Source of the DNA: Exiguobacterium sp. FSL W8-0210
Lineage (GTDB): Bacteria > Bacillota > Bacilli > Exiguobacteriales > Exiguobacteriaceae
Assembly (NCBI RefSeq): GCF_038006045.1
Contig: NZ_JBBOUK010000001.1
Span: 2,087,001 to 2,151,000 of the forward strand
Direction of reading: 5' to 3'
Length of the DNA stretch: 64,000 bases
The stretch's first letter is position 1. Every line of letters starts with the position of its first letter. The translations under genes and the position numbers were made by a program. Below the pieces are notes generated by a model. It did not search any database, had not been told where the DNA came from, and worked only from the letters and a program-made list of their open reading frames with translations. This document shows, piece after piece, positions 6,134 to 20,711 of this stretch.

Positions 6134-7087
6134 TTATACGAGTTGCGCTTGATATGCTTCCAGTTCTGCATCCGTCATCGAAACAAAATGACCTGGTTCG
6201 ATTTCACGAAGTGGTGGAATGCTTGAATCTTCATCTGATTTACCAACAGGTCCACTCGTCGGACGATCATAAACGATCCGCTTACGCGTACGCTCGTGCT
6301 CTGGATCCGGAAGCGGAATCGCAGACAAGAGCGATTTCGTATAAGCATGGACCGGATTCTCATATAAGCGATCCGCACTACATAGTTCAACGAGGTGACC
6401 TTGGTACATAACGCCGATACGATCCGAGATATATTTTACCATCGATAAGTCGTGGGCGATGAACAAGTAAGTCAAACTACGGTCACGTTGCAGTTTTTTC
6501 ATCAAGTTGACGACCTGCGCTTGAATCGATACGTCAAGTGCCGAGATTGGCTCATCCGCGATGATGAAGTCCGGTTCTACAGCAAGCGCACGCGCGATTC
6601 CAATCCGTTGACGCTGACCACCTGAGAACTCGTGTGGGTAACGGCTCGCATGTTCTTTCGTCAAACCAACTGTTTCGAGTAAATCGTACACACGGTTATT
6701 CCGCTCGTCTTTCGACTTTGCTAGACCATGAATATCAATTCCCTCAGCGATGATATCACCGACTGTCATCCGTGGGTTAAGTGACGCATAAGGGTCTTGG
6801 AAAATCATTTGCATAGCACGGTTGAACTTCAGTTTATCTTTACGCGACTTTTTACCATGAACGTTTTCACCTTTGAACATGACTTCGCCGTCTGTCGCCT
6901 CATACAATCCGATGATTGAGCGACCAGTCGTTGATTTACCACAACCCGATTCACCTACAAGACCAAGTACTTCGCCTTCATAGATATCGAATGATAAACC
7001 ATCAACCGCTTTAACGACACGTCCGCGTCCAATGTTGAAGTGTTGCTTCAAGTTTTTTACTTCAAGTAATTTATTACGGTTTTCCAT
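6134..7087 (-). CDS. oppF: oligopeptide ABC transporter ATP-binding protein OppF
   Basis: 317 residues. Walker A GESGCGKS is at 45-52, the signature SGGQRQR begins at 155, and Walker B FIIADEP is near 174-180, followed by the C-terminal oligopeptide/dipeptide ABC extension (YENPVHAYTKSLLSAIP). It is one of the two ATPases that power peptide import through OppBC. The start codon overlaps the oppD stop by one base (TAATG), indicating translational coupling. It is the last gene of oppABCDF. Confidence 0.93.
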   Translation of the reverse strand: MENRNKLLEVKNLKQHFNIGRGRVVKAVDGLSFDIYEGEVLGLVGESGCGKSTTGRSIIGLYEATDGEVMFKGENVHGKKSRKDKLKFNRAMQMIFQDPYASLNPRMTVGDIIAEGIDIHGLAKSKDERNNRVYDLLETVGLTKEHASRYPHEFSGGQRQRIGIARALAVEPDFIIADEPISALDVSIQAQVVNLMKKLQRDRSLTYLFIAHDLSMVKYISDRIGVMYQGHLVELCSADRLYENPVHAYTKSLLSAIPLPDPEHERTRKRIVYDRPTSGPVGKSDEDSSIPPLREIEPGHFVSMTDAELEAYQAQLV

Positions 7088-8160
7088 TATTTCAGACCGC
7101 CTTTCAGAAGCGATTTCGCGAATACGCTATCTGGGCGGTATTTCAACGCCAGATCCCGAATTGCAAGTGGTGGCTCAACATACGGTGCTTGTGGGTGGAG
7201 CAACCATGTCGCCGCTTCGTGAGTATCTGTAATTTTGAAGAAAGGAGGTTCTTTTTCAAAATCAATCTTCATTGCATATTTATTTCGTGGTGCAAACGCG
7301 TCACCGACTGGTGGATGAAGTAAGTTAGGTGGTGTTCCTGGAATCGCCGGTAAATCTTGTGAACGGTCATCCGATGGACGTGGCATTGAACCAAGGAGTC
7401 CCCAAGTATATGGATGACGTGGCTCGTAGAAAATCTCATCGACTGTACCCTTCTCAATTAATTTACCTGCATACATGACCGCTACACGATCGGCCATGTT
7501 CGCTACAACGCCTAAATCGTGCGTAATGAAGATGATCGCTGTACCCGTTTTTTGTTGAATGTCTTTCAATAACTCAAGGATTTGCGCTTGAATCGTAACA
7601 TCGAGTGCTGTCGTCGGCTCATCGGCAATCAAGACTTTCGGATTACAAGCAAGTGCGATTGCGATGACGATCCGTTGACGCATCCCACCAGACAATTGGT
7701 GTGGATATTGTTTCAGACGTGCTTCTGGGTTTGGAATCCCTACAAGCGTCAGTAATTCAAGCGTACGTTTTTTAGCAGCATCACCTGTCAATCCTTGGTG
7801 ACGTTTTAAACCTTCGGCAATCTGTTTGTAGATCGTCATTGTCGGATTAAGTGATGTCATTGGATCTTGGAAGATCATTGCGATATCACGACCGCGTACT
7901 TTTTGCATTTCTTTATCAGAAAGCTTAACCAAATCGCGACCTTCGAATAAGATCTCACCTTTTGTGATTTCACCTGGCGGATTTGGAATCAGACGCATGA
8001 TGGCTTTTGAAGTAACCGATTTACCAGAACCGGACTCACCAACGATTGCGAGTGTTTCACCTTTTTTTAAATCGAACGATACTCCGCGGACGGCTTGTAC
8101 CGTCCCGGCGTACGTATGGAAAGCGACGTTCAGGTCGCGGACTGACAAGATTGTTTCCAT
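7087..8160 (-). CDS. oppD: oligopeptide ABC transporter ATP-binding protein OppD
   Basis: 357 residues. Walker A GESGSGKS at 41-48, a signature LSGGMRQR and Walker B VLIADEPTTALD are intact, and the C-terminal oligopeptide ABC extension (EPRHPYTWGLLGSMPR) is present. It pairs with OppF as the ATPase heterodimer. AGGAG lies before the ATG. Order and spacing (32 bases after oppC, one-base overlap with oppF) place it in the oppBCDF transcript. Confidence 0.93.
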   Translation of the reverse strand: METILSVRDLNVAFHTYAGTVQAVRGVSFDLKKGETLAIVGESGSGKSVTSKAIMRLIPNPPGEITKGEILFEGRDLVKLSDKEMQKVRGRDIAMIFQDPMTSLNPTMTIYKQIAEGLKRHQGLTGDAAKKRTLELLTLVGIPNPEARLKQYPHQLSGGMRQRIVIAIALACNPKVLIADEPTTALDVTIQAQILELLKDIQQKTGTAIIFITHDLGVVANMADRVAVMYAGKLIEKGTVDEIFYEPRHPYTWGLLGSMPRPSDDRSQDLPAIPGTPPNLLHPPVGDAFAPRNKYAMKIDFEKEPPFFKITDTHEAATWLLHPQAPYVEPPLAIRDLALKYRPDSVFAKSLLKGGLK

Positions 8161-8192
8161 TTTGGATGAGCTCCTCTCTAATCTAATATTTG

Positions 8193-9224
8193 TTAGCGAC
8201 GTAGACGTGGATCGAACGCATCACGTAATCCATCTGCCAACATGTTGAAGCTGATCATGAGGAGTACGAGCACTGTCGATGGAACGACGAGCAAGAAAGG
8301 AAACGTCTTAAGTTCTTTGTACCCTTCATTGATCAGTGTACCAAGCGACGGTTGCGGTGGTGCAAGCCCAAGACCGATGAAGCTTAGGAAAGCTTCGAAG
8401 AAGATTGCCCCAGGAATCGTGAACATGAGCGAGATGATGATTGTACCCAAGGTATTTGGAATCAAATGCTTGAAGACTAAACGTGCGCTAGAAGCACCAA
8501 GTGTACGTGCTGCGAGAACGAATTCTTGGTTCTTTAGTTTCAGGATTTGACCACGAACAAGTCGACTCATCCCGATCCAACCAGTAATCGTCATCGCGAG
8601 GATGATCGTCGTGATTCCTGGTTCAAGAATCAAGATGAAGAGGATGATCAAGATTAAGTTCGGTACCCCTGTCAGGATTTCCGCGATCCGTTGCATGATA
8701 TTATCGACACGACCGCCGTAATAAGCTGAAATACCACCGTATGTGACACCGACGAGAACGTCAATGAGCGCTGCCATCAAACCGATGAAGAGTGAAATTT
8801 TCGTCCCTTCCCAGACACGTGACCAAAGATCACGACCAAGGTGGTCCGTACCAAACCAATAATTTTCTTTTACTTGTTTTTGTTTATAAAAATCGATTGG
8901 TGTCTCACCAAGTGTTGCCATACCATCAAAGCCAGCCCACTCTAATCCTGTTACTTTAGGTGGAAGTTTAGCTTGAGTGATTGTTTGGGTATAAGCATCT
9001 TTACCAGAGATTGCAGGACCCGCTAATGACATGATGGCAATCACGATGATCAAGACAAGAGAAATGATCGCTGCTTTGTTTTTACGCAAGCGCATCCAAG
9101 CATCCTGCCAAAAGTTTAAGCTTTTACCGGCAATTCGTTCACCGGCTTGTTCATTGAACTCGACTTGTTGAAATAACGATGAATCGAACTGTTCCGCTTT
9201 TGCATTTGAATTTTGTTCAGCCAT
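8193..9224 (-). CDS. oppC: oligopeptide ABC transporter permease OppC
   Basis: 343 residues. A cytoplasmic N-terminus is followed by a first membrane helix (about residues 50-72), a long extracytoplasmic loop, and a BPD permease domain with the EAA-type loop (VLAARTLGASSARLVFKHLIPN). It ends DPRLRR. It forms the membrane channel with OppB. Its start codon overlaps the oppB stop by one base (TAATG). Confidence 0.93.
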   Translation of the reverse strand: MAEQNSNAKAEQFDSSLFQQVEFNEQAGERIAGKSLNFWQDAWMRLRKNKAAIISLVLIIVIAIMSLAGPAISGKDAYTQTITQAKLPPKVTGLEWAGFDGMATLGETPIDFYKQKQVKENYWFGTDHLGRDLWSRVWEGTKISLFIGLMAALIDVLVGVTYGGISAYYGGRVDNIMQRIAEILTGVPNLILIILFILILEPGITTIILAMTITGWIGMSRLVRGQILKLKNQEFVLAARTLGASSARLVFKHLIPNTLGTIIISLMFTIPGAIFFEAFLSFIGLGLAPPQPSLGTLINEGYKELKTFPFLLVVPSTVLVLLMISFNMLADGLRDAFDPRLRR

Positions 9225-10150
9225 TATTTACTACCCCCCAAACGAATCCGTGGATCAACGACACCGTATAGCAAGTCGACGATTAAAATCATGAGAATGA
9301 AGATTGCCGAGAAGAACAGCGTCGTACCCATGATAACTGTATAGTCATTTTGTGTGATTGACGATACGAACAACTCACCAAGTCCAGGTACAGCAAAGAT
9401 TTTTTCGATGACAAATGTACCTGTGATCAATGCAGCAGTCATAGGTCCAAGAATCGTAATAGCAGGAATCAATGCATTCCGAACCATGTGTTTCCAAGTG
9501 ATTGATTGACCATCTAGGCCTTTTGCTTTAGCTAACGTGACGTAATCCTGACCTGTAACCTCAAGCATTTCCGTCCTTACGAATCGGGCAATCGAGGCGG
9601 TGACCCCAAGAGACAACGAAATCGTTGGTAGAATCGTATGCGCCGGACTTTCCCAGAACGCTACTGGCAAAGCGCCCCATTTCACGCCGACATAATACTG
9701 AAGGAGTGAGGCAAATACGAAAGATGGTACTGAAATCCCGAGAACCGAGATGAACATTGCTCCGTAGTCGACAACTGTGTTGTGACGAAGTGCAGCAACT
9801 ACACCAAGTACGAGACCTAAGAGTACACCAAGTACGAGTGCTTGAACTCCAAGTTGAGCCGATGGTCCAATTCGTTCAGAAATTAAATCCGTAACTGGAC
9901 GGCTGTCATATTTGAACGATACACCAAGGTCTCCTTGGAATAAGTTAACCATGTACGCTGCATAGCGTTGTGGTAGTGGATCATTCAAATTGTACTTATC
10001 CCGAAGGATATTCAACTGTTCAGGAGAAAGTTTCTCCTGGTTCTGGAATGGTGAACCTGGTAGCAGATCCATCAGGAAGAAAGTGAACGAAGCGATGAGT
10101 AAAAACGTCAATACGCCGTAAACCAGGCGTTGAGCTAAATAACGGCCCAT
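9224..10150 (-). CDS. oppB: oligopeptide ABC transporter permease OppB
   Basis: 308 residues. The N-terminal helix MGRYLAQRLVYGVLTFLLIA is typical of OppB/DppB. The EAA loop reads YVTLAKAKGLDGQSITWKHM, and the protein ends in LLYGVVDPRIRLG. It is an inner-membrane channel subunit. A 331-base gap with a terminator-like hairpin and a candidate promoter separates it from oppA, which would allow oppA to be made in excess over the membrane subunits. Confidence 0.93.
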   Translation of the reverse strand: MGRYLAQRLVYGVLTFLLIASFTFFLMDLLPGSPFQNQEKLSPEQLNILRDKYNLNDPLPQRYAAYMVNLFQGDLGVSFKYDSRPVTDLISERIGPSAQLGVQALVLGVLLGLVLGVVAALRHNTVVDYGAMFISVLGISVPSFVFASLLQYYVGVKWGALPVAFWESPAHTILPTISLSLGVTASIARFVRTEMLEVTGQDYVTLAKAKGLDGQSITWKHMVRNALIPAITILGPMTAALITGTFVIEKIFAVPGLGELFVSSITQNDYTVIMGTTLFFSAIFILMILIVDLLYGVVDPRIRLGGSK

Positions 10151-10481: not shown

Positions 10482-12095
10482 TTACTTCACATCAACATAT
10501 TTGTATTGGAAATCTGCTCCGAACAATTGACGGTTAAAATCTTTAACCGATGGACGGCTCAAGTATGCAGAACCAGCTTGATAGATTGGTGCGATGGCTT
10601 GATCTTTTTCAATCAATTGTGCCTCAGCTTGTTTGAACAAATCTAAACGCTTCGTCAAATCTGACTCGTCGTTTGCCGCGTTTAATAATTTATCATACGC
10701 AGCTGATTTGTACTTCACGTCATTTTGACTGTTCGTTGATTCGAAGATGGACAGGTTAGACATTGGATCTTGGTAATCCGGACCCCAAAGTGAGTAAGAG
10801 ATTTGGTAATCTCCTTTTGCTTCAAGATCGAGTTTGTTCTTGAACGGCTGTTGCTTAATTGAGACAGTGACGTTCGGAAGATTCTTCTCGATTTGACCTT
10901 TCATGTACTCACCGATTTTCTTCGCATCTTCACTATCGAACGAAAGCAATTCAATCGTCGTTTTCTTATCGCCATTTGCTTTTTTCCAAAGATCTGCTGC
11001 TTCTTTCGCGTCACGATCGAACCAGTTGATGTCGCTCGTGTAGTCTTTACCTGATGCATCCTTGACAAAGTCTTTTGGAATGAAGCTTGTTGTTGGAATT
11101 GAACCATTCGCAAGAAGCGTATCCGTGATACCTTTTGGATCGATCGCACGAGCGATTGCTTTACGTGCATTGACATCTTTCATCGTTGCATCTTCGTTAT
11201 TGAACTTCAGATAAGCGATTGAAGAACGAAGCGCTGTCTTGAATTCAGGCTTCGATTTGTAAGCTTCAACTTGCTCTGAGGTCAGACCTGCGTAATCAAT
11301 TTCATTTGAATCATACAAGTTTGCGACTGTTGACGTATCTTTAACGACACTGATCGTGACTTCGTCGAGTTTGACAGCATCTTTATCCCAGTAGTTGTCG
11401 TTTTTCTTCAGGACACGTTTTGAATCCGTTTTCCAAGATTCCCAAACGAAAGGCCCGTTATAAAGCAATTTATCTGGTTTGAGCGAGAAGTCTTTTTCGT
11501 TTTTCTTGTAGAAGTCTTCACTGATCGGTGTATACGTACCGAACGATGTCAGTGAGAGGAAATACGGAGCTGGACGCTCGAGTTTTACTTCTAACGTTTT
11601 ATCATCGATTGCTTTAACACCGAGTTCATCAACAGGCTTTTTACCTTGTGTAACATCAGCGCCGTTTTTTAACGTGTCAAAGATGTATGAGTAACTAGAA
11701 CCTGTTTTTGGATCAGCAGCACGTTTCCACGCGAATTCAAAATCTTGTGCTTTGACGGGTGAACCGTCTGACCATTTCGAATCACGAAGCGTGAACGTAT
11801 ACGTCAAATTGTCGCTTGAGATATCCGTTTTTTCTGCAAGTGCTGGAATCGCTTTTCCGTCCTTGTCTAAACGATAAAGACCTTCCATCGTGTTTCCGAT
11901 CATGTTGAAAGCGACGGAATCCGTAGCTTTCGCTGGGTCCACTGTCGTAATATCCGAAGTGTCCGTTAAACGTAGATTTTTCTTGCCGTCTGTCGAACCT
12001 GAATCTTTGTCTCCGCCACCTGTCGAACATCCAGCAAGCACAGCGCTTCCTGCAAGCATGACTGATAAAGCGAGACCGACTGTTTTTTTCTTCAT
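10482..12095 (-). CDS. oppA: oligopeptide-binding lipoprotein OppA
   Basis: 537 residues. A lipoprotein signal peptide ends in the lipobox LAGC with the lipidated cysteine at residue 23. The mature part is an SBP family 5 peptide-binding protein (DNYWDKDAVKLDEV, SLWGPDYQDPMSNL). It captures extracellular oligopeptides for OppBCDF. AAAGGAG precedes the ATG. It has a strong promoter about 130 bases upstream. It is clearly paralogous to the protein encoded at 15968-17611. Confidence 0.93.
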   Translation of the reverse strand: MKKKTVGLALSVMLAGSAVLAGCSTGGGDKDSGSTDGKKNLRLTDTSDITTVDPAKATDSVAFNMIGNTMEGLYRLDKDGKAIPALAEKTDISSDNLTYTFTLRDSKWSDGSPVKAQDFEFAWKRAADPKTGSSYSYIFDTLKNGADVTQGKKPVDELGVKAIDDKTLEVKLERPAPYFLSLTSFGTYTPISEDFYKKNEKDFSLKPDKLLYNGPFVWESWKTDSKRVLKKNDNYWDKDAVKLDEVTISVVKDTSTVANLYDSNEIDYAGLTSEQVEAYKSKPEFKTALRSSIAYLKFNNEDATMKDVNARKAIARAIDPKGITDTLLANGSIPTTSFIPKDFVKDASGKDYTSDINWFDRDAKEAADLWKKANGDKKTTIELLSFDSEDAKKIGEYMKGQIEKNLPNVTVSIKQQPFKNKLDLEAKGDYQISYSLWGPDYQDPMSNLSIFESTNSQNDVKYKSAAYDKLLNAANDESDLTKRLDLFKQAEAQLIEKDQAIAPIYQAGSAYLSRPSVKDFNRQLFGADFQYKYVDVK

Positions 12096-14282: not shown

Positions 14283-15866
14283 ATGTTTAAAGATTATAAC
14301 ATGAACCAGCTGGTTCTGCCCTTAGATTTAGAAGTTCGTCTTCAAGAAAATGATATCGCGTTCGCTGTCCATCATCTCGTCGAATCCATTCCGGATGATG
14401 TTTTCGATCCTTTCATGCGGACGACGGGATGCCCTGCTTATCACCCGCGGATGATGATGAAAATTATTTTATGTGCCTACACACAGTCGGTCTTCTCCGG
14501 TCGGAAGATTGAGGGATTACTATCCGATAGTCTGCGGATGATGTGGCTAGCGCAAGGGAATGCGCCGAGCTATCGTACCATCAACCGTTTTCGAGTGCAT
14601 CCCGCAGTCACTCCAATCTTGAAGCAAGCCTTCGTTACCTTCCGTTGCCATCTCGTCGAGATGGGAGAAATCAATGAAGAAGCCATCTTTATCGATGGTA
14701 CAAAGCTAGAGGCGAATGCGAACCGATACACCTTTGTTTGGCGGAAATCGATCGAACGTCATAGTTCGTCTCTCGTGGACAAATCGAATCGTATCTATGA
14801 CAACCTCGTCGAACAAGACATCCTACCGGAAATTGAACGAGAAAGCCCGGACGAGCTCACTCTCTCAGAACTCGAACACATGGGTGAAGCTTTAGACGCA
14901 CATATCGCTTCCATCAACCAAAAAATCGAGGCGAGTTCGGATACTCAAGAAAGAAAACGTCTACGTTCTGAACGGAAGGAACCACGTCTCCTTCGAAAGG
15001 AGATTACAGATTTCATCGAGCGGAAACAGAGATACGCCCTCCAAAAGAGGACGCTCGCTGGACGGAACAGCTATTCGAAAACAGACACAGACGCGACGTT
15101 CATGCGAATGAAGGAAGATCATATGCAAAATGGACAACTCAAGCCAGGCTATAACGTTCAAATCGCGACCGAAGGACAGTACACACTCGCTTATGATATT
15201 TATCCGAATCCGACGGATGCCCGGACGTTACTCCCCTTTTTAGATGAGATCAGCTCATATTTACCACTACCACCGCATATCGTTGCGGATGCCGGCTATG
15301 GGAGTCAGGAGAATTATCAGGATATTCTGATGCGCCGAGGGCGCATTCCACTCATCCCTTATACGATGTTCGAAAAAGAAAAGTCTCGAAAATGGCGCAA
15401 TGATCCATTTAACACAGTAAACTGGTCTTATGATGAAAGGTCGGATCGTTTTGTGTGCCCTAATGGACAGGACGTAACATTCCGTTACATGTCCAAGAGA
15501 ACAGATCGGTACGGATTCACGCGTGATTTCAAGGTGTATGAAAGCGAAGGGTGTGATGGCTGCCCGTTTCGCTCCCGTTGTACCAAGGCCAAAGAGGGTC
15601 GTCACCGACAGGTACACATAAACACTTCATGGGAAGAACAAAAAGAACAGATGAAAAAATGGCTTTCAGATCAAAAAACAGGATCCCTCTATGCGAAACG
15701 GAAGATAGACGTGGAACCAGTTTTTGGATATCTGAAGGCTAATTTGAGTTTCACTCGCTTTTCTGTGAGAGGAAAAGCGAAGGTGAAGCGTGAGCTCGGC
15801 TTCATCCTCATGGCCGTAAATTTAAGAAAATGGCTCATCCAAAGCGTTGCCCGAAGGGCAACTTGA
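14283..15866 (+). CDS. IS1182-family transposase
   Basis: 527 residues, full length for the family. The N-terminal DUF772-type domain includes CPAYHPRMMMKIIL. DDE residues are D138 (FIDGTKLEANAN), the D in HIVADAGYGSQENY (about 337), and E in KIDVEPVFGYLKANLSF (about 480). A cysteine-rich segment CDGCPFRSRC precedes the last motif. GGAGG stands just before the ATG. The frame is unbroken, so it is probably functional. Confidence 0.94.
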   Translation: MFKDYNMNQLVLPLDLEVRLQENDIAFAVHHLVESIPDDVFDPFMRTTGCPAYHPRMMMKIILCAYTQSVFSGRKIEGLLSDSLRMMWLAQGNAPSYRTINRFRVHPAVTPILKQAFVTFRCHLVEMGEINEEAIFIDGTKLEANANRYTFVWRKSIERHSSSLVDKSNRIYDNLVEQDILPEIERESPDELTLSELEHMGEALDAHIASINQKIEASSDTQERKRLRSERKEPRLLRKEITDFIERKQRYALQKRTLAGRNSYSKTDTDATFMRMKEDHMQNGQLKPGYNVQIATEGQYTLAYDIYPNPTDARTLLPFLDEISSYLPLPPHIVADAGYGSQENYQDILMRRGRIPLIPYTMFEKEKSRKWRNDPFNTVNWSYDERSDRFVCPNGQDVTFRYMSKRTDRYGFTRDFKVYESEGCDGCPFRSRCTKAKEGRHRQVHINTSWEEQKEQMKKWLSDQKTGSLYAKRKIDVEPVFGYLKANLSFTRFSVRGKAKVKRELGFILMAVNLRKWLIQSVARRAT

Positions 15867-15967: not shown

Positions 15968-17611
15968 TTATTTTCCTTCGATTGAAGCCCATTTGTAAGA
16001 GAAGTCTGCGCCGAAGTTATGCTCGACGACTCCTTTGACGTATGGTTTAACGAGGAATGCACGTCCACGCTGATAAACAGGTGAGATTGCTGCTGAATCA
16101 AGAAGGATTTTCTCAGCTTCTTGTAGTTCAGACCAACGTTTTGTTGCATCTGTTTGAGTTTGTGCATCTTTGATGAGTTTATCGTACTCTTTGTCCGACC
16201 ATTTACCACGGTTGTATGGTCCGCCCGTGACGAAGAGATCGAGGAACGTCATTGGATCTTGGTAGTCAGGACCCCAGCCAGCGAATGAGAACTCGAAATC
16301 ACCTTTGTTTTCAAGATCAAGTTTGTTTTTGAATGGTTGTTGTTTGATCGTAACCTTCATACCTGGAAGGTTTTTCTCAAGTTCCCCTTTCAAGAACTCA
16401 CCGATTTTCTTAGCATCGTCGCTATCGTAGTTCAAGAGCTCAAGATCAACCGATTTTTGACCGATTTCTTTGAGACCCTCTTCCCAGAGTTTTTTCGCTT
16501 CATCGGCATTGTATTCGTTGAATGCCGGATACTTGTCGCGGAAATCTTTTCCGTCAGCATCTTTTGCGAAATCTTTTGGTACGAGGTAGTTTGCTGGAAG
16601 TGATCCGTTTGCAAGGATGACATCCGTGATTCCTTTTTTGTTGTAACCCATATCGATGGCGCGACGGATTTTTTCATTATCAAGCGCTTTTACCTTTGTG
16701 TTGAGGTTAAGGTAGAAGATCGTTGATTCACCTTTTGTTTTAAATTCTTTATTGTCTTTGTACTGAGCAACGAACTCAGAAGTTAGACCTGTACGGTCGA
16801 TGTCACCTTTTTCGTAAAGGTTAACACCTGTCGCTGTCTCTTTAACGACCTTAACGTTGATCGTTTTAAGTTTGACGGCATCTTTATCCCAGTAGTTATC
16901 GTTTTTAACCATTTTCCAGCCTTGTTCACGTGTCCATTCTGTTAACTTGAATGGTCCGTTGTAGAGCGCCTTGTCTGCAGTCGAACCGAAGTCTTTCCCG
17001 ATTTTCTTCGAGAGTTCTTCTGATTTCGGCATGAATGGTCCGAATCCAGTGAGTCCGAGGAAGTAATCTGCAGGTGCTTTTAACTTAACTTCGAGCGTTT
17101 TGTCATCGACTGCTTTAACACCGACAGCATCACGATCGCCTTTTTTCGTATTGTACTCTTCTGCACCTTCGATATTGTAGAAGACGTATGCATACTGTGA
17201 AGCGTTTTCAGGATTTAGAACTTCTTTCCATGCATATTCGAAATCTTTTGCCGTAAGTGGTGTACCATCAGACCATTTTGCATCACGTAATTTGAACGTG
17301 TATGTTAATTTGTCATCTGAGACTGTATGACTCTCAGCGATACCTGGTGTTGGCTGCTGCTTGTCATCAAGACGGTAAAGACCTTCCATCGTGTTGTTCA
17401 ACACGTTGAATGAAACTGCATCTGTAGAAGTCGTCGGGTTAAGTGTCGGGATATCCGAACCTTCGATCAAGTTAAGTGTTTGATCACTAGATTTTTTGTC
17501 TGAACCAGTGTCGCCCGATTTGTCGCCTGAATCCGTTGTCGAACAAGCTGCGAGGAACGCACTTGATACGAGTGCTACCGATGTAGCTAAAGCAAAGCTT
17601 TTCTTCTTCAT
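15968..17611 (-). CDS. second oligopeptide-binding lipoprotein (OppA paralog)
   Basis: 547 residues. The lipobox LAAC has its cysteine at residue 23, and the mature SBP family 5 domain is intact (DNYWDKDAVKLKTINV, AGWGPDYQDPMTFLDLF). The sequence is strongly similar to OppA along its length (shared FKLRDAKWSDG, KVTIKQQPFKNKLDLE-type segments). There is no permease or ATPase next to it, so it probably feeds OppBCDF with a different peptide spectrum. The IS lies seven bases past its stop. It is preceded by its own candidate promoter. Confidence 0.92.
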   Translation of the reverse strand: MKKKSFALATSVALVSSAFLAACSTTDSGDKSGDTGSDKKSSDQTLNLIEGSDIPTLNPTTSTDAVSFNVLNNTMEGLYRLDDKQQPTPGIAESHTVSDDKLTYTFKLRDAKWSDGTPLTAKDFEYAWKEVLNPENASQYAYVFYNIEGAEEYNTKKGDRDAVGVKAVDDKTLEVKLKAPADYFLGLTGFGPFMPKSEELSKKIGKDFGSTADKALYNGPFKLTEWTREQGWKMVKNDNYWDKDAVKLKTINVKVVKETATGVNLYEKGDIDRTGLTSEFVAQYKDNKEFKTKGESTIFYLNLNTKVKALDNEKIRRAIDMGYNKKGITDVILANGSLPANYLVPKDFAKDADGKDFRDKYPAFNEYNADEAKKLWEEGLKEIGQKSVDLELLNYDSDDAKKIGEFLKGELEKNLPGMKVTIKQQPFKNKLDLENKGDFEFSFAGWGPDYQDPMTFLDLFVTGGPYNRGKWSDKEYDKLIKDAQTQTDATKRWSELQEAEKILLDSAAISPVYQRGRAFLVKPYVKGVVEHNFGADFSYKWASIEGK

Positions 17612-17710: not shown

Positions 17711-17772
17711 ATAGTTTACAATGTTCTGATAATTTTGCAAACCTTTTATCCGATTTTTCTAAATATTTTTTC

Positions 17773-17811
17773 AAAAAAAAGACTGGGACCTTAAGAAATA
17801 ATGGTCCCAGT
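17773..17811 (-). terminator. terminator of the membrane-anchored OppA-like gene
   Basis: ACTGGGACC/GGTCCCAGT perfect 9-base stem; on the minus strand it is followed by a run of eight T. It lies just after the stop at 17819. Confidence 0.9.
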
Positions 17812-17818
17812 TAAGTGA

Positions 17819-19375
17819 TTATTTTAAAATTTTCATCGAGCGGAGTAGGTATTCCGGTCCATAAATCGGTACTTCAATTCCTTGAATCGTATCAGAAACA
17901 TATAATTTCTCAGTCGTCTGATACAAAGGAACGACGACAGCATCCTGATGGATTAACCGTTTTTCGGCTTGATGATAGAGTGCTTGTTTTCGTTTTATCT
18001 CTTTTTCTTTTCGTGCTTTTTCAACTGTCTGGTCGTATACCTTGGATTGATAATTCACCGAATTTAAAGGATTGTCTGAGACGAATTGATTTAAATAGGC
18101 TAGCGGTCCTGGATAATCTGGCATCCATCCAGTCAAAGTCATCGCATACTGAGCTAACTGTTCTTTATCAATCTTCTCTTCAATCGCAACTGGTTTAAGA
18201 ACGATATCAATCTCAGGTATTTGTTTCTCAAGATAGGTTTCGAGTTGTTCCCCAATCCGTTTTGCTTGTGGATCATCAAAATTAAGCATCTCAATTTGTT
18301 GTTTACTGTGTTCTTGTGATTTTTCAGGTTTCTCTTGAACGGATTTTGACATCAATACGTTCGTATCAGTGACGACGAATCGATTCGTCGGAATACCTGC
18401 ATACCCTAAAGGAAGTTGAACCGATTCTTTTTCCATCAAGGCGTAAGCAATTCGTTTTCGGAGTGTCGTATCGCGGAACGTGTCATTTTTTTGATTAAAG
18501 GCGATATAAAAGACACCACTCCGCTTTTTTTGATAGGTCGGTCGTGAAACCTGATCACCTTGTGTTTCGACACTTTCTTGTAATGGAAGGATAGCCGCCT
18601 TGTTTTTCTTATACGAACTCCATTGCGTCTGATGATCGGGAATGATACGGCTTTCTATTTTCGCTACTGTAACAACGTTTTTCTGATGATACTGATCATT
18701 TTTCTTAAGCGTATATCCGCTTTTCGACATTTTTTCTAGTGTAAATGCACCATTTCCAACAAGTTCTTCCCACTTCTTTGATTCCGGTTGTGGATAGAAG
18801 ACGGACATCGCAAGTAATTCCTTTAGATTCGAAACCGGCTGATTCAACGTGATGATAAGTTGATTGCGTCCTTTCGCCTTTACACCTAAACACTCTGGCT
18901 TCATTTTTCCGTCATTGACGGCACGTCCATTTTCAAACACTTCAAATAAAAAACCATAAGGAGAATTCGTTTTATTAGCTGCGACACGTCGGAAACTATC
19001 GACAAAGTCTTGTGCCGTGATCGGCTGACCCTGCGCATTTTTCGTTTGTTTGAGTTGAATCGTATACGTCAGACGATCCTTTGAGACTGACATATCCTGT
19101 GCTAATCCTCGACGGACGGATGTCCCAGAAGTAAAGACATATAATCCTTCATACAGTTGTGCTAACAGTGTCTGAGAACGACTATCTGTCGCTAACGCAA
19201 TATCGGATGTCTTCGGGAGTGATGATTCAATTAATTCAACCTTCACTGCTTGGGTCTCCTGATCTGTTTTGGTCTTTTGAGATGATGATAGACGATATAT
19301 GAGCGTACCACTGAGACCAATCAATAAAAATAAGATCAATATCAGGATTGATGTTTTTCTTGTGATGTTAGTCAT
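17819..19375 (-). CDS. OppA-like peptide-binding protein with uncleaved N-terminal membrane anchor
   Basis: 518 residues, the third SBP family 5 protein in the window (LTYTIQLKQTKNAQGQPITA, TLTGWMPDYPGPLAYLNQF). After a short charged start comes a hydrophobic helix (about residues 9-27, ILILILFLLIGLSGTLIY) with no lipobox cysteine and no clear signal peptidase I site. The binding domain is therefore probably tethered outside the cell by a transmembrane helix. It is more divergent than the other two. It may deliver peptides to OppBCDF or act as a sensor or chaperone. GGAG precedes the ATG; the gene follows fabF on the same strand beyond a terminator. Confidence 0.82.
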   Translation of the reverse strand: MTNITRKTSILILILFLLIGLSGTLIYRLSSSQKTKTDQETQAVKVELIESSLPKTSDIALATDSRSQTLLAQLYEGLYVFTSGTSVRRGLAQDMSVSKDRLTYTIQLKQTKNAQGQPITAQDFVDSFRRVAANKTNSPYGFLFEVFENGRAVNDGKMKPECLGVKAKGRNQLIITLNQPVSNLKELLAMSVFYPQPESKKWEELVGNGAFTLEKMSKSGYTLKKNDQYHQKNVVTVAKIESRIIPDHQTQWSSYKKNKAAILPLQESVETQGDQVSRPTYQKKRSGVFYIAFNQKNDTFRDTTLRKRIAYALMEKESVQLPLGYAGIPTNRFVVTDTNVLMSKSVQEKPEKSQEHSKQQIEMLNFDDPQAKRIGEQLETYLEKQIPEIDIVLKPVAIEEKIDKEQLAQYAMTLTGWMPDYPGPLAYLNQFVSDNPLNSVNYQSKVYDQTVEKARKEKEIKRKQALYHQAEKRLIHQDAVVVPLYQTTEKLYVSDTIQGIEVPIYGPEYLLRSMKILK

Positions 19376-19430
19376 AAACGACTCCTTTCTGCGTCAAACA
19401 CGCATTTCTCTATTGAATCAGAATTTCATC

Positions 19431-19469
19431 AAAAAAGCGACCCCCTTGATGTTTCAAGGGAGTCGCTTG
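19431..19469 (-). terminator. terminator of fabH-fabF
   Basis: AAGCGAC-CCCTTG/CAAGGG-GTCGCTT hairpin directly after the fabF stop, ending in TTTTTT on the minus strand. Confidence 0.88.
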
Positions 19470-19472
19470 AGC

Positions 19473-20711
19473 TTAAGCTTCATACCGTTTGAAGACGAGT
19501 GATGCGTTGTGTCCACCGAACCCAAGCGAGTTGCTGAGCGCATAAGTCATTTCGACGTGACGTGAACCTTCTGTCACATAATCGAGATCACAGCCTTCGC
19601 TCGGCTGTTTGAGATGAATCGTCGGGTGAACTGTTTGTTCTTGTAATGATTTAATCGTCGCAATTGCCTCGACGCCACCTGCTCCACCAAGTAAGTGACC
19701 GATCATCGATTTCGTCGAGTTGACGACGAGTTGTTTCGCTTGTTCACCGAAGACACTGTGGATCGCTTTTGTTTCAAGGATGTCGTTCATTGGTGTACTC
19801 GTTCCATGAGCATTGATGTATCCGACTGCCTCCGGAGTGATGCCCGCATCTTGAATCGCCATCGCCATCGCGCGTGCTCCACCGTCTCCGTCTGGATCCG
19901 GAGCTGTGATGTGGTACGCATCAGCTGTTAATCCATACCCACTGACCTCAGCATAGATTTTCGCACCACGAGCTACTGCATGCTCATATTCTTCAAGAAT
20001 TAAGATTCCTGCTCCTTCTCCCATGACGAATCCGTCACGTCCTTCGTCAAATGGACGGCTTGCCGTCTCAGGATCGTGGTTCGTTGACATCGCTTTGTTG
20101 GCACAAAAACCAGCAAATGCTAAGTTCGTGATCGGCGCTTCCGCACCACCAGCGATCATGACATCTGCATCGCCCCGTTCGATGACACGAAGTGCTTCCC
20201 CGATGGCATTCGTTCCTGAAGCACATGCTGTGACAGAACAGTTATTCGGTCCCTTGGCTCCGGTATAGATTGATACCTGACCGCTTGCCATGTTCGGAAT
20301 CATCATCGGAATGAAGAACGGGCTGACACGACGGTGTCCACGTTCAAAGTAGATTTTCGCTTGTTTCTCGATTGTCTCCACGCCACCGATTCCTGATCCA
20401 ATCCAGACACCTGCACGTTCAGCAATCGACTTGATATCAATTCCAGCATCTTTTACAGCTTCCATGCTTGCGACAAGTGAGTAATGAACGAAGCGGTCCA
20501 TCTTGCGTGCTTCTTTCGCCTCGATGAATTCTGTCACGTCGAAGTTTTGCAATTCGCCAGTGACCTTTGTTGGATATTCATCGATATCGAGACGCTCCAT
20601 CGGTCGAATCCCGTTCGTTCCTTCTTTTAATGATTCCCAGAATGTATTGGCATCGTTCCCGATTGGTGTCAGTGCTCCGATTCCTGTGACTACAACGCGT
20701 TTTCTTATCAT
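19473..20711 (-). CDS. fabF: beta-ketoacyl-ACP synthase II
   Basis: 412 residues. The catalytic triad C163 (VTACASGTN), H302 ([11 protein letters not shown]) and H339 ([12 protein letters not shown]) marks an elongating KAS of the FabF type. It condenses malonyl-ACP with acyl-ACP in fatty acid synthesis. It begins one base after the fabH stop, with AAAGGAG inside the end of fabH, so it is translated from the same mRNA and falls under the FapR-type promoter. Confidence 0.96.

Follow-up and report, generated by a model that had tools for sequence, protein, structure and literature searches.

Substrate-binding proteins (SBPs) with a built-in helix anchor exist in archaea, a different domain of life from the bacterium considered here. 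The introduction of a 2024 structural paper (PMC11192437) names two ways in which SBPs of Gram-positives are retained, a lipid attached to the N-terminal cysteine and a covalent linkage with the pore, and OppA of Gram-positives is described as a lipoprotein in the available part of another (PMC10569065). In the Ami system, as PMC11192437 presents it, several SBPs share one permease and the proteins carry a lipobox; the pneumococcal set, AmiA and AliA-AliD with AmiCDEF, is a case of extra family-5 SBPs on one permease, as we propose for a gene, here called X, whose product has no lipobox. In streptococcal iron-binding SBP genes, sequence comparison indicates that a lipoprotein signal became a transmembrane signal (PMC7530257, available part), an anchor switch of the same kind as in X but in another SBP family and other bacteria; the available part of PMC12445088 contains nothing on SBP anchoring. 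Judged by sequence, the switch thus appears to have a precedent in another SBP family, while for the OppA-type case no report of X or of a helix-anchored protein was found in the open-access literature, among the matches listed (titles and abstract openings). An OppA-type lineage with a hydrophobic anchor, present in both genera of one family, would offer a natural test of the role of the lipid in hand-over from SBP to permease, and X would be a receptor independent of lipoprotein processing by Lgt and LspA.

The window analysed is a stretch of 64,000 nucleotides from Exiguobacterium sp. FSL W8-0210. Gene X occupies positions 17819..19375 on the minus strand, stop codon included, and encodes 518 amino acids. 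The open reading frame and the match to Pfam family SBP_bac_5 (PF00496; 143.9 bits, 9.4e-42, above the cut-off of 32.4 bits) bear out the preliminary description of this gene as encoding an OppA-type protein. A Shine-Dalgarno sequence read directly, AAAGGAG, lies 6 nt 5' of the ATG (19382..19388, minus strand). The protein begins with an uncharged hydrophobic run, residues 8-27 (19295..19354, minus strand), which sequence and the AlphaFold2 model mark as a likely signal anchor. Arg28 and a polar linker come right after the run, the linker being assigned in the model to residues 31-44 with low pLDDT (19244..19285, minus strand), and the remainder, residues 45-518 (17822..19243, minus strand), is a solute-binding domain of predicted cluster C, or OppA, fold by AlphaFold2 and structure comparison. 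Upstream of the ATG the frame is open for just six codons, none of them an alternative start, before a stop is reached; a missed start that would add a lipobox, which the preliminary description had named as the finding that would undo its claim, is therefore ruled out. A cytoplasmic regulator of the SgrR type is ruled out as well, given that no DNA-binding domain was found in X and the N-terminus is hydrophobic.

Orthologues of X were found in 12 of 19 Exiguobacterium genomes, at an E-value of 1e-60, and in all 19 genomes of the sister genus, where identity is 31-35% over the whole alignment (18 read). Thirty of these 31 were read (12/12 from Exiguobacterium and 18/19 from the sister genus, G249 being left out). 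The reading frame is open in all thirty, which rules out an annotation or sequencing artefact, and SBP_bac_5 is matched by every one of them at an E-value of 0.001 or better. All have a hydrophobic N-terminus, and none has a lipobox; because the whole set of orthologues read shares this lack, it is not a local mutation. Twenty-eight contain no cysteine in the entire protein. The only cysteine of the window's X is residue 162, and in L013 a Cys16 sits in the middle of the hydrophobic run, preceded by Ile, and makes no lipobox. X thus falls outside the bacterial lipoprotein SBPs, for which the mark is a lipobox with its cysteine in the N-terminal signal. The other two OppA proteins of the window do carry lipoboxes with Cys23, as had been noted: LAGC in OppA1, the first gene of oppABCDF (10482..12095), and LAAC in the paralogue OppA2, which adjoins X (15968..17611), both on the minus strand and assigned by Pfam and by reading the sequence. 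As a control, N-terminal regions of SBP_bac_5 proteins from genomes spread over the class Bacilli were searched with a loose lipobox pattern. It was present in 64 of 66 distinct genes (67/69 rows, less three duplicate rows), a sample in which divergent members of the family may be under-represented, since it was taken from the higher-scoring matches listed (about 278 bits or more; X scores 144). The two exceptions are L090, which has no signal region, and L092, which has a hydrophobic N-terminus without Cys. The gene of the L092 protein (1258-2889), from another family of Bacilli, is immediately followed by one for a DppB-like permease.

Whether such an N-terminus stays attached can be judged in part from its composition. 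Over the best 19 residues, hydropathy averages 2.61 in X (2.31-3.04, n=30) versus 2.05 in the lipoprotein SBPs (1.07-2.76, n=64), but 17 of those 64 lipoprotein signals reach the lowest value for X, so hydropathy alone is indecisive. Sites resembling those of signal peptidase I were sought with a loose pattern requiring Ala at -1, and by a second rule allowing Gly or Ser there. The Ala rule found a site in 11 sequences out of 30. Those from Exiguobacterium have it at residue 42-43 (seven) or within the hydrophobic run (three); the sister genus contributes one, L066, with the site at residue 36. The Gly/Ser rule added SSS/Q at residue 32 in eight Exiguobacterium sequences and inside-run sites in four. 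Under either rule, no site was seen in 17 of the 18 sister-genus sequences, nor in L019. The preliminary description had reported a hydrophobic N-terminal helix without cysteine or a clear signal peptidase site; the hydrophobic stretch without cysteine stands, and no clear site was found, but two weak ones exist in the window's X, SSS/Q after residue 32 and TQA/V after residue 43, the latter with its TQA 16 residues beyond the hydrophobic run. The AlphaFold2 model places an N-terminal helix at residues 5-30, with pLDDT below 50. From these sequences, an uncleaved signal anchor is most likely the state of the X N-terminus, and cleavage of the window's own X by signal peptidase I is unlikely. 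The membrane tethering proposed earlier is accordingly what is predicted for the group.

AlphaFold2, given a 32-row alignment, returned a model with a mean pLDDT of 82.6 and a pTM of 0.79, in which the domain, about 45-518, is mostly confident and the loops 271-275 and 339-355 fall below pLDDT 50. Foldseek ranked Listeria OppA (5kzt, E-value 4.2e-43) as the best solved match. A second aligner placed Bacillus subtilis DppE at the top (apo form 8azb, Z 39.3 over 468 residues), followed by DppE with murein tripeptide at Z 38.4, MppA at 37.3 and OppA chains at about 36-37. The model therefore has the cluster C peptide-binding fold over the whole domain. The best matches by Z score, DppE and MppA (8azb, 8ay0, 3o9p), are binders of murein tripeptide; we take DppE to be a lipoprotein and MppA to be periplasmic, both unlike a helix-anchored X. 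PrgZ, the third sequence match to X among solved structures, is presumably likewise a lipoprotein, unlike X. With OppA of Bacilli and Listeria (PF00496, cluster C; 5kzt, 8are), X shares the fold over residues 41-518, the aspartate for the amino end of the ligand and a GW-P-D motif, and it differs from them in its lack of a lipobox, its hydrophobic anchor, shortened loops, a long stem in the tree and fast evolution.

The motif reads GWMPDY in the window's X (residues 416-421; 18113..18130, minus strand), and in alignments of all 30 orthologues G416, W417, P419 and D420 are invariant. G416 and W417 align with G415 and W416 of Escherichia coli OppA, and D420 with its Asp419, which grips the amino end of the bound peptide. 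K307, H371, R404 and R413 of that protein, presumably the contacts for the carboxyl end of the ligand, are not kept in X and are absent too from OppA1 and OppA2, whereas Y274 is kept throughout except for a Phe in L019; these comparisons use 17 of the 30 X sequences and contact positions from OppA structures. Ion pairing of OppA and DppA with charged ligand ends has been described (PMC10924461, available part). The structure prediction that the preliminary description had suggested for the peptide cleft, together with the invariant Asp420, points to a cleft intact in outline. Its view of the binding domain as divergent also holds up, with identity of 32% to OppA1 and 28% to OppA2 and with two loops shorter than in either. 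Three further residues, Q196, R332 and Q430, do not vary among the X sequences and differ from those of OppA1 and OppA2. The NCBIfam OppA equivalog model NF011684 (cut-off 947 bits) scores X at 113, OppA1 at 252 and OppA2 at 235, and so does not discriminate here, since OppA1 and OppA2 also fall below the cut-off.

In seven of the 19 Exiguobacterium genomes X is missing from the interval between fabF and oppA2, which in one of them (G005) holds a transposase gene; in the four of the seven gaps that were aligned (289-306 bp), no remnant of X was seen. A tree of 14 of the 19 Exiguobacterium genomes, based on four linked genes (oppA2, trpS, oppA1 and oppB), has a branch with 100/100 support that separates the seven X-less genomes from the rest. 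Because they sit on one branch and the sister genus has X, the absence reads as a single loss with opp retained. Recent horizontal gain of X is unsupported, the gene being present in both genera, beside fabF wherever read, and absent on one branch only. A search of 398 genomes of the class, with three candidates from each, gave one match at 1e-62 outside the family (G314, 33% identity, E-value 2.7e-63); the OppA1 of the window's own genome scores 3.3e-60 against X, so that G314 lies close to ordinary OppA level. In a 55-row tree that includes 17 of the 30 X sequences, X forms one clade with 100/100 support on a stem of length 1.15, for which the tree program warned that long branches may join falsely; the group to which this clade belongs also holds OppA1 and OppA2 of Exiguobacterium and two further SBPs of its own. 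For three unsaturated pairs, dN/dS is 0.105-0.138 in X against 0.040-0.054 in oppA2 and 0.030-0.047 in oppA1, and among five genes compared X has the highest dN. Between the window's genome (G000) and G006, identity is 44% for X, 90% for oppA2 and 83% for oppA1. By these sequence comparisons X is under purifying selection, yet evolves several-fold faster than OppA1 and OppA2.

Family models identify the neighbours of X as fabF, fabH, trpS and the oppBCDF set. The upstream neighbour is fabF (19473..20711, minus strand), which by coordinates precedes X in 12 of the 12 Exiguobacterium genomes that have it. Nine X loci, seven from Exiguobacterium and two from the sister genus, were read gene by gene and share the order fabF, X, oppA2, trpS, a DUF3899 gene, oppA1, with oppB beyond oppA1 in those whose stretch extended that far. 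In the window, oppF, oppD, oppC and oppB, the neighbouring oligopeptide permease, span 6134..10150 on the minus strand. Under the NCBIfam models, OppB scores above the cut-off for the peptide permease Opp3B and OppC above that for Opp3C, and OppD and OppF are assigned as best matches with scores below cut-off. X and oppB lie on the same strand and less than 9 kb apart in 29 of the 31 genomes with X. One of the remaining two is a draft with the genes on different contigs (G156). In the other (G002, contig C1, about 1.69-1.72 Mb), X is still beside fabF, but opp is some 24 kb away on the opposite strand, which suggests a rearrangement and means that close linkage of X and opp is not required.

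Permease counts bear on which importer X might serve. The sister-genus genomes all have X, and in 14 of these 19 the OppB of the opp operon is the only OppB-type match at an E-value of 1e-5; G006 has one additional match, partial and at 27% identity. If X feeds an OppB-type importer detectable at that threshold, the importer in those 14 genomes is OppBCDF. A lone permease can also occur where X is missing: G013 lacks X and has just one OppB match. This case, together with the single loss in which opp was kept, indicates that X is dispensable. The window's own genome encodes two OppB homologues versus at least six intact family-5 SBPs, so that several of its SBPs are probably orphans sharing a permease.

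We propose that X serves OppBCDF as an auxiliary peptide receptor tethered by its helix, a reading to which we give about an even chance. X would be a paralogue of OppA in which an uncleaved helix of N-in/C-out topology, at about residues 8-27, has taken the place of the lipoprotein signal; joined to this helix by a short linker, the peptide-binding domain would be held at the external membrane surface. Since the OppA fold and the amino-end Asp are retained, the domain most likely binds short peptides, and it would most likely hand them to OppBCDF, encoded about 7-8 kb downstream, working beside the lipoproteins OppA1 and OppA2. As the best explanation of the observed sequence, conservation, gene order and selection and of the predicted fold, we infer the anchoring, the peptide binding and the docking on OppBC. 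The fast evolution and the two shortened loops suggest that docking or ligand may have changed relative to OppA1 and OppA2. Among the three roles offered in the preliminary description (fixed receptor, peptide sensor, helper for the Opp channel), the last is the closest fit, since X is kept in genomes whose sole OppB-type match is the OppB of the opp operon.

Other readings share much of this evidence. X could be a membrane-tethered peptide receptor independent of transport, whether a sensor, a decoy or a capture protein, with a partner other than OppBC. Its fast evolution around fixed core motifs, an anchor unlike that of the adjacent transport lipoproteins, its own invariant Q196, R332 and Q430 and the broken opp linkage in G002 would all suit such a role. 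However, the hydrophobic run is preceded by just seven residues, which leaves no cytoplasmic signalling domain; no other Pfam family was found in any of the 30 members, and the neighbours at the nine loci are fab, opp, trpS and DUF3899 genes and transposases. We regard this reading as possible, though unlikely. The domain might instead bind another ligand, such as cell-wall peptides in the manner of DppE or MppA, and feed recycling through Opp. The ranking by Z score, with apo DppE, DppE with murein tripeptide and MppA closest, is what one would look for, but OppA chains come next, Foldseek ranks Listeria OppA first and proteins of one fold can bind different ligands, which leaves the idea distinctly improbable. 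The most far-reaching reading, in our judgement an improbable one, is that X represents a new, lineage-specific class of helix-tethered receptors in a Gram-positive family. Here a protein that once served Opp, now fixed at the membrane and with invariant residues of its own, would be dedicated to one particular peptide or fragment of the wall instead of scavenging nutrients.

Two further explanations are export and decay. If the N-terminus of X were an ordinary Sec signal peptide cut by signal peptidase I, the protein would be secreted or trapped in the wall; the two weak sites of the window's X have counterparts in most Exiguobacterium sequences, but the lack of any in L019 and nearly all of the sister genus, the distance of TQA from the run and a run that is on average more hydrophobic than lipoprotein signals, with overlap, make this doubtful. 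That X is a decaying paralogue without current function would account for its absence from 7 of 19 Exiguobacterium genomes and for its having the highest dN of the five genes, yet thirty open genes out of thirty, a dN/dS of at most 0.138, presence in every sister-genus genome and loss on one branch make it highly improbable. The auxiliary receptor for OppBCDF is the reading we prefer over these.

The intergenic regions around X hold several features of possible regulatory or historical interest. A terminator-like hairpin found by a hairpin scan ends fabF (19435..19468, minus strand), and X is therefore probably transcribed from its own promoter in Exiguobacterium. Downstream of X is another terminator-like hairpin with a T run (17773..17811, minus strand), read from the sequence directly, its 12-nt loop being longer than the scan allows. 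Between the fabF terminator and X (19376-19434), the motif TTCTGnTTnAAT occurs in 12 of the 12 Exiguobacterium loci aligned and is possibly the X promoter; in seven aligned rows from the sister genus, the hairpin between fabF and X was not seen and GGGTATAAGGG stands in place of TTCTGnTTnAAT. Between trpS and oppA2 the window has an IS1182-family transposase gene (14283-15866), an insertion not seen at the same place in the other Exiguobacterium loci read, and in G005 another transposase-like gene, of 312 aa, is present twice, with one copy on each side of oppA2. The spacing of oppA2 and X, usually about 0.2 kb, is about 2 kb in one sister-genus genome (G323; L150, 5410-7452). Outside the window, at about 539.2-540.9 kb of the same genome (L007, G000 contig C1), the lipobox N-terminus and the remainder of an OppA-like gene lie in different frames, and the gene looks broken by a frameshift. 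Upstream of oppA2, at 17720-17734, lies a CodY-box-like site with two mismatches to the consensus; such sites number 8 in the whole window, where chance would give 4.3, and this one falls within a block identical across six aligned intergenic rows.
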